From Solidesulfovibrio fructosivorans JJ] (GTDB lineage: Bacteria; Desulfobacterota; Desulfovibrionia; Desulfovibrionales; Desulfovibrionaceae), in assembly GCF_000179555.1 (NCBI RefSeq), contig NZ_AECZ01000011.1:62001-126000 (forward strand): a stretch of 64,000 nucleotides of DNA. The letters are read 5' to 3'. Positions 5 to 4,455 of this stretch are shown here, piece after piece. The position numbers and the translations under genes are program-made. The notes under the pieces were generated by a model, which ran no database searches, had not been told where the DNA came from, and saw nothing but the letters and a program-made list of their open reading frames with translations. Numbering within the stretch: position 1 is the first letter of the stretch; each line of letters opens with the position of its first letter.

Positions 5-835
5 ATGTCCCAAGCCATAAATCCCAGGAGCTCCCTGTCCGTGGCGATTCTCAGCGGCAAGGGAGGCGTGGGAAAAACCAATCTCGCCCTCAACCTGAGC
101 TATGCCCTGTTTCGCGCCGGTCACAAGGTGCTGCTCATGGACTTCGATGTGGGGCTGGCCAATGTGGACGTGCTGCTCGGCCTGTCGCCGGAAAAAAACC
201 TGCAAGACCTCTTCCGGCCCGAAGTCAATGCCGAGGAGGTCATGCTGTCCGTGGAGGAAGGCGGCTTCGACTTTCTGCCGGCGGCCAGCGGCGTGCCCGA
301 ACTGCTGGAAATGGACGACGACATGCGCGAAATCCTTTTCCACAAGCTCAACAATGCGTTCAGCAACTACGATTACCTCATGCTCGACCTCGGAGCCGGC
401 ATCTCCCAGACCGTCCTGTCCGTGGCCGCCATGAGCCATCTCCACGTGCTGGTGGTCACGCCCGAACCGACATCCCTGACCGACTCCTACGCGGTCATCA
501 AGGTGCTCCATTCCCAATACGGGATTTCCGACTTCCATGTGCTGGTCAACCAGGTGAGCGGCGCCGCCGACACCAAGGCCACCTACAACCGTCTGGCTTC
601 GGCATGCCAGCATTTTCTGGGATTTACGCCGGAACTGCTCGGCGGCGTCCGCGCCGACCCGACCCTGCCGGACGCCGTGCGCCGTCAGATCCCGCTGTTG
701 CGCCACGCTCCCAAGTGTCCGGCGGCACAGGATATTTTGGCAGGAGCCGTCAAGCTGCACCGTATTCGACAGGCTCGGGAGGAGGCGCTGCAAACCCTGC
801 CGGTGCTGGGAAAACTTCCCCGGCCGCCGAAGTAG
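5..835 (+). CDS. MinD/FlhG-family ParA-type ATPase
   Basis: A 276-residue P-loop ATPase of the MinD/ParA superfamily. The deviant Walker A motif SGKGGVGKT lies at residues 17-25 and is followed by DFDVGLANVDVLLG, the switch-type motif shared by MinD and FlhG. The family places division sites or polar flagella by ATP-dependent dimerisation on membrane or partner proteins. The short N-terminal lead before the P-loop and the lack of an obvious C-terminal amphipathic helix fit FlhG (FleN/YlxH) somewhat better than MinD, but FlhF or flagellar genes would have to lie upstream, outside the window. The ATG at base 5 is the first start visible; the ribosome-binding site is off the edge. An HU-like gene follows after about 110 bases. 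Confidence 0.85.
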   Translation: MSQAINPRSSLSVAILSGKGGVGKTNLALNLSYALFRAGHKVLLMDFDVGLANVDVLLGLSPEKNLQDLFRPEVNAEEVMLSVEEGGFDFLPAASGVPELLEMDDDMREILFHKLNNAFSNYDYLMLDLGAGISQTVLSVAAMSHLHVLVVTPEPTSLTDSYAVIKVLHSQYGISDFHVLVNQVSGAADTKATYNRLASACQHFLGFTPELLGGVRADPTLPDAVRRQIPLLRHAPKCPAAQDILAGAVKLHRIRQAREEALQTLPVLGKLPRPPK

Positions 836-947
836 GCCTTGACGAACGTCGCTATTTTTCGGCAATGGTATGAAATAGATGGACGATTGCTCGACCGCCA
901 GCTTCCGGCGGTGCCCGGCCAACCGTCAACAGCGCGAGGACACCGCG

Positions 948-1223
948 ATGAACAAAAGCGAACTCATCAAAACCCTGGCCGAAACCAAGGACCTCCACAT
1001 CGATGAGGCGGCGGACATCGTCAATGCCTTCGTCGATTCCGTCAAGCAGGCGCTGATCAACGAAGACCGCGTGGAAATCCGCGGGTTTGGCAGCTTCAAG
1101 ATCAAGGGCTACAAAGGCTACACCGGCCGCAACCCCAAATCCGGCGACGTGGTCACCGTGGCTCCGAAAAAGCTCCCCTTTTTCCGCCCCGGCAAGGAAC
1201 TCAAGGAATATCTGAATAAATAG
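948..1223 (+). CDS. HU/IHF-family DNA-binding protein
   Basis: A 91-residue histone-like protein of the HU/IHF family, the usual length for the family. It opens with MNKSELIKTLAE, has the hydrophobic dimer core, and carries the conserved GFGSFKIK turn followed by the DNA-intercalating arm with GRNPKSGD. Such proteins bind and bend DNA as dimers and compact the nucleoid. The reading frame is open upstream to an ATG at 879, but that would add a 23-residue arginine- and cysteine-rich tail absent from the family. The ATG at 948, preceded by GAGG about nine bases away, is the better start. It lies between the ATPase and the UshA-like pair, all on the same strand with short gaps. HU and IHF subunits cannot be separated by eye. 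Confidence 0.92.
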   Translation: MNKSELIKTLAETKDLHIDEAADIVNAFVDSVKQALINEDRVEIRGFGSFKIKGYKGYTGRNPKSGDVVTVAPKKLPFFRPGKELKEYLNK

Positions 1224-1230
1224 GCGTCCC

Positions 1231-2097
1231 ATGCGAGCATTGCGCGTTTTTCTCCTGGGTCTGGGCTTCATGGTCCTGGCGATCCGGCCGGCTTTCGCCG
1301 CCGATCCCGTGCTGACCATCCTGTTTTCCGGCAATACCTACGGCTACTACGATCCCTGCCCCACCTGCGGCCCCGAAAAACTCGGCGGCCTGGCCCGGCG
1401 CGCGACCTATATCCGCAACCTGCGCACCCAGCCGCCCACGGCCGGCAAGACCCTGGTCGTGGCCGGAGCCTGGGAATTTCTGCCCGAAGTCTCGGCCGCG
1501 CCGCCCGAGCCCGAAAAGCTCCCGGCCGTGGCCAAGGCCCATGAACGCCTGGGCTATGACGTCCTGGCCGTGACTCCGGCCGAAGTAAAGGTCCTCACCG
1601 AACACAAGGCCGCCGTGCCCAAGGATGCCGTCATCCTCGGCCAGGAACCGACCACGCGGATCATGACCATCGGCGGCAAGGCCGTGGGACTGGTCTTTTT
1701 CCCCATGCCCGCCGACGTGAGCGCCCCTGTGCCGGACAAGCTGATGGACGCCGTGGCCAAGGCCGCATCCGGCCTGCGCGGCAAGACCGCCCTGGTCGTC
1801 GGCATCAGCCCCTGGGGGGCCATCGACGAGGAGGCGTTCATCAATACCCGCGTGGGCGCGGTGGACGTGCTGCTCGGCAGCGGCGGCGGCTCGGGCTTTC
1901 CCTCCCGGACCTCGAAAAACGGCAAGACGCTGTGGACCCGGGCCTACATCAAAGGCAAGACCATCAACCGCCTGGACCTCTTCGCGCTGCCCGGCGCGTC
2001 CGGCTTCACCTGGAAGGTCGGCGACAACTTCATGGCCAAGGTCCAGCCCCTGGATGCGGCCTTTCCCCAGGACGAGGCCATCGAAAAGTTGTTCTGA
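1231..2097 (+). CDS. UshA-like periplasmic protein, Cys form
   Basis: A 288-residue exported protein with a signal peptide (MRALRVFL then a hydrophobic core, cleavage probably after AFA near residue 23). The mature part begins DPVLTILFSGNTYG, which resembles the first strand of UshA/5'-nucleotidase calcineurin-like metallophosphatases (the 'NDxHG' strand), but the metal ligands of that motif are not intact. A CPTC motif (Cys43, Cys46) follows at once, suggesting a redox or metal-binding site. The C-terminal half carries DVLLGSGGGSG and YIKGKTINRLDLFALPG, shared almost word for word with the next gene. The domain is about half the size of full UshA. It starts 7 bases after the HU gene. Enzymatic activity is unknown; the UshA link is a fold-level inference. 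Confidence 0.75.
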   Translation: MRALRVFLLGLGFMVLAIRPAFAADPVLTILFSGNTYGYYDPCPTCGPEKLGGLARRATYIRNLRTQPPTAGKTLVVAGAWEFLPEVSAAPPEPEKLPAVAKAHERLGYDVLAVTPAEVKVLTEHKAAVPKDAVILGQEPTTRIMTIGGKAVGLVFFPMPADVSAPVPDKLMDAVAKAASGLRGKTALVVGISPWGAIDEEAFINTRVGAVDVLLGSGGGSGFPSRTSKNGKTLWTRAYIKGKTINRLDLFALPGASGFTWKVGDNFMAKVQPLDAAFPQDEAIEKLF

Positions 2098-2136: not shown

Positions 2137-3018
2137 GTGCTGCAAAAAATATTGCGCGCCCTCCCGGCCGCCATGCTCCTGCTTTGTGCCCTCGCCGTCC
2201 CGTCCGCGCGGGCGGCCGATCCCGTGCTCACCATCCTTTTTACCGGCAATACCTACGGCAACGTCGCGCCGTGCCCCTCCTGAGGCGGCAGGCTCATCGG
2301 CGGGCTGGCCCGGCGGGCCGCCTTCATCAAGACCCTGCGCAACGCCCCGTCGCTCCATGACCGGCTGTTGCTTCTGGCATGCCCCTTCGAAGTGCTTCCC
2401 GACTACGCCCTGGAAGCCAAACCCGATCCGCGAAAGATGCCCGGCATGGTCAAGGCCCTGGATATGATGGGCTACGACGCCGGAGCGCTTACCCCGGAAG
2501 AAGCGGCTTTTCTCAAAGAGGCCGGAGCGCCTCTGCCCGCCGCCTTCACCGTCCTTGGCACCGCGCCCCAAACCAAGCTGGTGCCCCTTGGCGGGGACAC
2601 GGTCGGCATCGTCTTTTTCCCGCCCTCGCCCGACCCGAAGAAACCGGCCCCGGCCGCCCTCGGCGACGCCGTGGCCCAGGCGGCCAAGGCGCTTCGGGGT
2701 AAGGCCCGGCTCGTCATCGGCATAAGCGGCCTGGGCATGGGCGACGAAAAAGCCTTTCTTGAGGCCCATCCCGGGGTCCTGGACATCCTGCTCGGCAGCG
2801 GCCCCAACGCCGGCAACGCCGGGCAACCCTCGGCCGACGGCAAGACCCTGTGGGCCCGGACCTACATCAAGGGCAAGACCATCAACCGCCTGGATCTGTT
2901 CGCCCTGCCCGGCGCCCCGGACTTCGCCTGGAAACCCGGCCAGACCTACAAGACCTCGGTCATCTCCCTGGACGAGCGATATCCCGCCGACCCGGCCGTG
3001 GAAAAGCTTTTCCAATAG
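2137..3018 (+). CDS. UshA-like selenoprotein candidate (UGA read as Sec49)
   Basis: Paralogue of the preceding gene with an in-frame TGA at 2281-2283. Reading TGA as selenocysteine gives a 293-residue protein with signal peptide (MLQKILRALPAAML...ARA), then LTILFTGNTYG and CPS-U-GG. The UGA falls exactly on the second cysteine of CPTC in the paralogue, with no length change on either side (CPTCGPEKLGGLARRA versus CPSUGGRLIGGLARRA). Homology runs uninterrupted across the codon to the shared YIKGKTINRLDLFALPG near the C-terminus. The GTG at 2137 is chosen because AAAAGG lies about 8-12 bases upstream and it supplies a basic n-region; ATG 2173 is the alternative. A hairpin can form immediately after the UGA. 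Desulfovibrio-type bacteria commonly use Sec, and I recall a family annotated as 'UshA-like (seleno)protein'. Selenium genes are not in the window. Confidence 0.82.
2284..2322 (+). promoter_or_regulatory. Candidate bacterial SECIS hairpin
   Basis: Directly after the in-frame UGA, GGCGGC (2284-2289) pairs perfectly with GCCGCC (2317-2322). An inner GGCT/GGCC stem (2291-2294 with 2307-2310, one G-T pair) leaves a roughly 12-base apical loop. The size of about 39 bases and position flush with the UGA fit bacterial SECIS elements recognised by SelB. The loop sequence was not matched to a consensus and the region is GC-rich, so some pairing is expected by chance. Confidence 0.5.
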
Positions 3019-4005: not shown

Positions 4006-4110
4006 AATTCGCGGGCAATGCAACGTCGGGCTGGCTTTTTGCCGCCGGACCATGCTAGGCTTATCATGTCGTCTTCAGATATCCCGCACCCATCATCAAC
4101 GGAGGAAGCC

Positions 4111-4455
4111 ATGTCACGCCGTATTCTCTTCGTGTTCCTGGCCGCAACGGCTTTGCTGGGACTCGCTGCCGGCTGCGCCCCGCTCAAACCCGCCTCGCCT
4201 TCCATGTTCTACGGCAACTGCATCACGCCCCCCGGCCCGGATCCCTGCGGTTCCGACATGAACATCTGCCAGCAGTTCGACAATGTCATTTCGCAAAAGT
4301 ACGCCACGGCCGGGGCCTGCCGCACGGCCTGCAACCAGGTTTACAACCACCTCTACTTCCAGGGCTATGATATGCAGGATTGCGGGTATATGCTCGATCG
4401 CGGCAGCGACCTGTGCGACCAGGAATGCCTGCGCCAGTATCCCGCACAAAAATAA
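4111..4455 (+). CDS. Small cysteine-rich lipoprotein, function unknown
   Basis: A 114-residue predicted lipoprotein. The signal peptide MSRRILFVFLAATALLG ends in a lipobox LAAGC with the lipidated cysteine at about residue 22. The mature part carries about nine further cysteines in repeated spacings (CITPPGPDPC, NICQQ, ACRTAC, DCGYM, LCDQEC), which suggests several disulfides in the periplasm. The start at 4111 is set by a strong GGAGGAAG about four bases upstream; an in-frame ATG at 4018 would bury the signal peptide behind 31 polar residues. I do not recognise the family. A strong GC hairpin follows the gene, so it is probably transcribed alone. Confidence 0.75.
   Translation: MSRRILFVFLAATALLGLAAGCAPLKPASPSMFYGNCITPPGPDPCGSDMNICQQFDNVISQKYATAGACRTACNQVYNHLYFQGYDMQDCGYMLDRGSDLCDQECLRQYPAQK

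Follow-up and report, generated by a model that had tools for sequence, protein, structure and literature searches.

A Predicted UshA-like Selenoprotein and Its Adjacent Cysteine Paralogue in Solidesulfovibrio

The Locus

The window analysed here is a stretch of 64,000 nucleotides from the genome of Solidesulfovibrio fructosivorans JJ (contig NZ_AECZ01000011.1, positions 62,001 to 126,000). Close to its start lie two adjacent genes of the NCBIfam family NF049981, "UshA-like (seleno)protein family 2" (curated cut-off 140 bits), preceded by two genes that recur beside the family in other genomes:

5..835, + strand: MinD/ParA-like ATPase, recurrent neighbour
879..1223, + strand: HU-family DNA-binding protein, next gene before the pair, also a recurrent neighbour
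1231..2097, + strand: tandem cysteine (Cys) paralogue with a CPTC motif, 288 amino acids, same family NF049981
2137..3018, + strand: UshA-like (seleno)protein family 2 gene, 293 amino acids with TGA read as selenocysteine (Sec49)
2137..2214, + strand: signal-peptide-like N-terminus, residues 1-26, ending ARA (A-x-A), recognized by eye
2281..2283, + strand: predicted Sec codon TGA (codon 49), CPSU motif
2302..2323, + strand: candidate bacterial SECIS hairpin, core GGCCC-GGC-GGGCC at 2307-2319

The frame at 2137-3018 (+) opens with GTG, closes with TAG and contains a single internal stop, the TGA at 2281-2283; a sequence-only reading had described it so, and the frame, the residue number 49 and the length of 293 residues are all correct. 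That reading had also placed the TGA at the second cysteine of a CPxC motif in a gapless alignment of the paralogues, with homology continuing past it, and both statements are borne out. The TGA coincides with the second Cys of CPTC (residues 43-46) in the adjoining gene, where the matching codon is TGC; CPTCGPEKLGGLARRA of the Cys copy aligns to CPSUGGRLIGGLARRA of the Sec copy, and the two proteins share 51% identity over residues 6-292. Homology thus lies on both sides of an in-frame UGA that is aligned to a conserved Cys of the homologues. The two paralogues score 293 and 284.9 bits against NF049981, covering positions 1-262 and 1-261 of its 262; neither matched Pfam. The family name given in the sequence-only reading is a real one. 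The Cys gene lies directly upstream of the Sec gene, and the gap of 39 bases between them suggests that both are carried on one transcript.

Reading the UGA Codon as Selenocysteine

The sequence-only reading had proposed a search for the selenocysteine genes, and these are present in the host genome (4.67 Mb, 75 contigs, 100% complete). Profile scores for SelA (613.9 bits), SelB (359.9 bits), and SelD (338.9 bits) are all over cut-off, as is that of a tRNA-Sec (84.8 bits), for which ARAGORN gives the anticodon tca (UCA); a second tRNA-Sec match (50.9 bits) is also over cut-off, and the host SelD has an in-frame TGA of its own (L020:1525-1527, codon U26). Because tRNA-Sec, SelA, SelB, and SelD are all encoded, the organism is, as judged from its genes, able to make selenocysteine. 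SelA was found in 29 of the 30 genomes checked in the host taxonomic family; in one Solidesulfovibrio genome with the gene pair (G405, a draft that is 96% complete) a SelA match was not found.

The TGA is a fixed property of the gene. All 14 second-copy genes, from 13 Solidesulfovibrio genomes, have one TGA at codon 49 and no further internal stop. A chance stop or a sequencing error at 2281-2283 is ruled out by this conservation of the TGA across genomes.

Recoding of UGA in bacteria is directed by a hairpin for which the published model specifies an apical loop of 3-9 nt with a G in its first two positions, located 16-37 nt after the UGA, as given in the accessible part of a review (PMC13188914). 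The Sec gene of the window contains a hairpin of this geometry, with the apical loop GGC at 2312-2314, separated from the TGA by 28 nt. Taken alone, this hairpin is not better than those of synonymous reshuffles of the gene (p 0.36), since GC-rich codons form such hairpins easily; folding of the 60 nt after the TGA likewise gave no signal (z 0.23, and 0.38 for the Cys copy). Within the window pair the hairpin energies are -8.8 kcal/mol for the Sec gene and -1.0 kcal/mol for the Cys gene. A search of the window against Rfam returned no SECIS match; one tRNA was the only hit over gathering, and a relaxed threshold added two unrelated weak matches.

The hairpin signal emerges at the level of the family, where the published geometry was scored against a null of synonymous reshuffles (G475, of which only a fragment was located, was left out). 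The 80 Sec genes have a mean hairpin of -9.5 kcal/mol versus -5.6 kcal/mol after reshuffling (Wilcoxon 4e-12) and the 26 Cys genes one of -6.6 versus -6.8 kcal/mol (p 0.41), although these p-values, like those for codon invariance given below, are too optimistic because related species are not independent. A hairpin at p<=0.1 is present in 37 of the 80 Sec genes versus 3 of the 26 Cys genes. The Sec genes at this level comprise 2/14 from the genus, 21/43 from other genera of the taxonomic family and 14/23 from distant relatives, so the signal is not significant within the genus, and the family result stems from other genera. In the genus pairs the stronger hairpin is in the Sec copy in 10 of 14 and in the Cys copy in 4. 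The codons of the hairpin are unusually invariant among genus Sec copies (140 of 20000 random column sets and 6 of 88 contiguous runs are as low) and not unusually invariant among genus Cys copies (12702 of 20000 column sets, 83 of 136 runs). The exact pattern of the window hairpin (GGCCC-GGC-GGGCC), which was picked after the sequences had been viewed, occurs in 19 of 20 taxonomic-family Sec genes; among Cys genes it is present in 3 of 15, and among the distant Sec genes in the first set in 3 of 23. Cys genes that derive from Sec genes and keep remnant SECIS-like structures have been described earlier, according to the available portion of that report (PMC1794560).

That the TGA is instead a true stop, leaving either a pseudogene or a 216-residue protein restarted at TTG 2368, is very improbable: an open reading frame from that TTG does exist mechanically, and pN/pS in the Sec copies is higher between the TGA and TTG 2368 (0.705) than after it (0.52), with 0.60 before the TGA and 0.84 over codons 1-26, but the TGA is retained, free of other internal stops, in every second copy of the genus and in most of the family; G50, G55, G56, R59, and R60 just past it vary little or not at all across a 51-sequence alignment; the Sec machinery of the genome is complete; and the hairpin signal is found family-wide in Sec genes and is absent from Cys genes. 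The gene at 2137-3018 is, on this genomic evidence, almost certainly a genuine selenoprotein gene, in which SelB and tRNA-Sec would read the UGA at 2281-2283 as selenocysteine, aided by the hairpin just 3' of it.

Distribution of the Tandem Pair

The family was found in 13 of the 14 Solidesulfovibrio genomes searched, the one genome lacking a match (G403) being 69% complete. Each of the 13 has an adjacent pair in which a TGA-free Cys copy comes first and a TGA-bearing copy second; one draft of 220 contigs (G400) has two adjacent pairs, which brings the total to 14 pairs. All 14 Cys copies have CPTC and no other cysteine, and all 14 Sec copies have CPSU, with one extra Cys outside the signal region in 6 of them. 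The two copies also differ in clade-specific motifs, CPSU, ISGLG, and LGSGPNAG (Sec) versus CPTC, ISPWG, and LGSGGGSG (Cys), and in main-body pN/pS, which is 0.52 for Sec copies and 0.34 for Cys copies (raw values, uncorrected for saturation).

In the host taxonomic family, a match that passes the cut-off or the E limit was found in 101 of 149 sampled genomes, representing 36 of 44 genera. Outside the genus, 92 genomes carry the family: 73 have a TGA copy unaccompanied by a second full-length one, 12 have a TGA-free copy only (three of them, G457, G499, and G509, counted by absence of TGA alone, with the Cys residue unseen), and 7 have two full-length copies (4 Sec+Cys, 3 Sec+Sec), none of them adjacent. 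The adjacent Cys/Sec pair is accordingly, among the genomes sampled, a feature of the single genus Solidesulfovibrio. The three Sec+Sec genomes (G498, G491, and G521, of other genera) each hold two unlinked TGA-bearing copies. In a sample of 394 genomes of the phylum, 7 are over the cut-off, the host included, and all 7 belong to the host taxonomic family; weaker matches occur in 140. The best 25 matches outside the taxonomic family each contain one in-frame TGA, and the 26th contains none.

A broken, TAG-bearing fragment of another family member is found in three Solidesulfovibrio genomes (L082:1501-1836, L083:367-702, and L084:1501-1836). The surrounding stretch, on contigs of 18-21 kb, is 100% identical among them (1911 bases between L082 and L084, 777 bases between L082 and L083) and may represent a mobile element or plasmid common to the three, or contamination; the plasmid records compared each covered at most 7% of the stretch.

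History of the Selenocysteine and Cysteine Copies

Homologues carry either Cys or Sec at residue 49, an exchange that the sequence-only reading had suggested looking for. In a tree of 90 sequences (G475 again left out, as a fragment) all 7 outgroup rows are Sec, and six label changes are needed (bootstrap range 5-6), 3 of which are forced by the starred branches alone. The pattern suggests that the six changes ran from Sec to Cys, with single reversals possible.

The genus Cys clade and the genus Sec clade, 14 genes each, are both well supported, and both fall inside a starred clade (97/95) together with Sec genes that other genera carry in single copy. The best tree makes them sisters with weak support (81/18; 85/72 in another tree), and earlier origins of the Cys copy survived an AU test on a 47-row tree (p 0.06 and 0.07). 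From the Sec state of the outgroup and the positions of the clades in the trees, Sec is most likely the ancestral state, and a duplication with one Sec-to-Cys change most likely dates to the ancestor of the genus or slightly earlier. A Sec-containing ancestral gene would have been duplicated in tandem at that point, and the upstream duplicate would have switched from Sec to Cys and been retained.

A Metallophosphoesterase Scaffold Without Its Metal Site

The 51-sequence alignment matches the catalytic domains of 5'-nucleotidases (3ivd, 1.7e-25; 2z1a, 4.2e-25) and SoxB (2wdc, 4.2e-13), and the SoxB model picks up 22 of the 51 sequences at E<=0.1 (the strongest at 1.5e-27); measured against the curated SoxB cut-off of 550, the Cys copy of the window reaches 10.9 bits and the Sec copy has no listed match. 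The dinuclear metal ligands of the UshA family are presumably the columns of D-x-H, D, N-H, H, and H-x-H in 2z1a and 3ivd. These eight columns are replaced in the 35 taxonomic-family sequences compared, except for one His in G184s; some distant relatives, for example G333r, G099r, and G036r, keep part of the metal site alongside the Sec motif. UshA and the 5'-nucleotidases also have a C-terminal substrate-binding domain. Matches to the best chains (509-567 amino acids) are confined to their N-terminal part, and the window protein, which ends at 293 residues and aligns solely to that part, lacks the C-terminal domain.

The invariant columns of the 51-sequence alignment are the Sec/Cys position, followed by two glycines and an arginine, and one late glycine. 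Position 49 is Sec or Cys in all 106 members compared (G475 dropped), and a partner Cys is present in 104 of them, as CxxU/C or, in 4, as CGU; the 4 with CGU are among the 23 distant relatives compared. G325r (L052) and G407 (L164) keep the Sec with the partner cysteine missing (VHSU and EAGU), so the CxxU pair is not universal.

By these comparisons the protein is a descendant of the metallophosphoesterases (5'-nucleotidase/SoxB catalytic domain) that has lost the metal site, with CPxU/CPxC as its sole conserved reactive feature. Since the nucleotidase metal site is gone, "UshA-like" denotes ancestry, not activity. The signal-peptide-like N-terminus suggests that the protein is probably exported.

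A redox role, as a selenol/thiol oxidoreductase, is the reading to which the conserved motif points, and it is rather likely. Such an oxidoreductase would act outside the cytoplasm on a decayed metallophosphoesterase scaffold; Sec49 would attack a substrate that is oxidised or bears sulfur, with Cys46 resolving the selenenyl bond. It is improbable that CPxU/CPxC performs no redox chemistry and instead coordinates a metal or metalloid, standing in for the lost dinuclear site. Such binding would suit a scaffold derived from metalloenzymes and the distant relatives, such as the three above, in which a partial metal site accompanies the Sec motif; against it, the canonical ligand positions are replaced throughout the taxonomic-family sequences compared (bar the His of G184s), two Se/S ligands alone would make a poor site, and two members have no partner Cys. 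A working 5'-nucleotidase/UDP-sugar hydrolase like UshA, which the profile similarity to 5'-nucleotidases and the family name might suggest, can be set aside almost entirely given the replaced metal ligands and a length of 293 residues that leaves no C-terminal domain.

Taken together, the oxidoreductase interpretation, export of a selenoprotein on a defunct metallophosphoesterase scaffold, and the proposed duplication history form a joint account that is considered probable.

The Gene Neighbourhood

In the taxonomic family the genes upstream follow the order CorC/HlyC, Lnt, RF2 (prfB), GGDEF, MinD-like, HU, and then the family gene, as assigned by Pfam in L103 and by sequence likeness of the same ORFs elsewhere; dapA follows downstream in several genomes (Pfam in L094, likeness elsewhere), and in the window a prepilin-peptidase-like gene lies 3' of the selenoprotein gene. 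A +1 frameshift site at a TGA is present in prfB in 14 of 14 loci scanned (L104, L103, L092, L094, L093, L102, L086, L087, L089, L090, L091, L096, L023, and L024; L088 and L095 were left out of the scan), 3.2-3.3 kb upstream of the first family copy wherever one locus holds both. Because prfB is situated a few genes upstream of the selenoprotein gene, one neighbourhood contains two UGA-recoding sites; the host prfB frameshift TGA is at L104:5600, approximately 1.9 kb upstream of base 1 of the window.

A functional link between RF2 and the selenoprotein was considered and rejected, for the neighbourhood is kept by 5 of 6 genomes checked in a sister genus without the family gene, where MinD, HU, and DapA are closed up around the empty place. 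Since MinD-HU-DapA is intact in genomes that lack the gene, plain inheritance probably accounts for the arrangement, which is then not a functional one. Loss of the Sec trait as the reason for the absence of the family from this sister genus (g3) was likewise rejected, SelA being present in 12 of 12 g3 genomes. As functional clues the neighbours in the taxonomic family are uninformative, being housekeeping genes.

Two further observations concern genes downstream. In the window, a small lipoprotein-like ORF, rich in cysteine and unmatched in Pfam, lies at 4018-4455, about 1 kb downstream of the selenoprotein gene, and a similar ORF is present in L092 (G404). In 3 of 5 distant relatives examined (L097-L101), a gene for a CCG-domain iron-sulfur protein comes after the UshA-like selenoprotein gene:

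L097:5797-6942: CCG-domain iron-sulfur gene (Pfam)
L098:5803-7053: CCG-domain iron-sulfur gene (likeness only)
L101:6128-7420: CCG-domain iron-sulfur gene (Pfam)

From its position, the CCG-domain protein is a possible electron partner.

Possible Roles of the Pair

Two accounts may explain why both copies are kept. In the first, which is a fair contender though somewhat short of probable, the Sec and Cys forms have split functions and act on different substrates or redox ranges; the clade-specific motifs, the different rates, and the retention of both copies across the genus agree with it, but drift within a backup pair could yield the same pattern.

In the second, the pair is a selenium-supply switch in which the Cys copy takes over under selenium shortage. 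The switch would act at translation: with both genes on a single transcript, lack of selenium would stop the Sec gene alone, at its UGA. The arrangement fits, in that the copies lie side by side with Cys upstream in 13/13 genus genomes with the family and the short gap suggests a single transcript, and in Methanococcus maripaludis, as far as the accessible text relates, Cys isoforms are used in selenium depletion (PMC11097638). The copies are merely about 51% identical, however, and their pN/pS of 0.34 (Cys) versus 0.52 (Sec) also fits divergent function; moreover, 73 of the 92 family-bearing genomes outside the genus have a TGA copy without a second full-length copy. A supply switch is a tentative possibility. 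The fuller sequence of events, in which decay of the metal site left catalysis to the CPxU loop and the genus pair then became a translational selenium-supply switch, is doubtful.

Relation to Known Systems and Significance

NF049981 appears among the CxxU selenoproteins, with GenBank annotation as its source, in the accessible part of PMC13188914, the only open-licence paper found that names it. Both window genes are far over the cut-off across the whole model and share CxxU/CxxC, with no difference at the family level. The PCGU type of UshA-like (seleno)protein, NF041198, is the COG0737 UshA-like protein with CxU in the available text of PMC2398784. It has recognisable homology to the window proteins, and its Cys/Sec likewise follows the first strand at the matching position, but its model has 519 positions and the window paralogues, at 52.2 and 45.2 bits, are far below its cut-off of 275. 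With SoxB and 5'-nucleotidase/UshA the window proteins have a catalytic-domain profile in common; they differ in having lost the metal ligands and the C-terminal domain and in carrying CPxU. The isoform sets of M. maripaludis resemble the window pair in placing a Sec and a Cys form in one genome; as described in the accessible part of PMC11097638, those sets are mostly methanogenesis enzymes whose expression follows selenium, whereas the window holds a bacterial tandem pair known from genes alone.

The accessible part of PMC13188914 holds no mention of an adjacent Cys+Sec layout, and titles and abstract openings in the open-licence literature yielded no paper on the tandem pair. The sequence-only reading had called the tandem layout less explored, which agrees with this outcome: the family is already named, and the tandem Cys/Sec pair of one genus is its least explored part.

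Why proteins keep selenocysteine where cysteine seems enough is an old question. With Sec and Cys forms adjacent in one probable operon, 13 genus genomes would supply matched pairs for measuring the benefit of selenium, and about five further Sec/Cys changes in the wider family would offer more comparisons; in addition, SECIS searches in GC-rich genomes could use the Cys copies as a built-in negative control.
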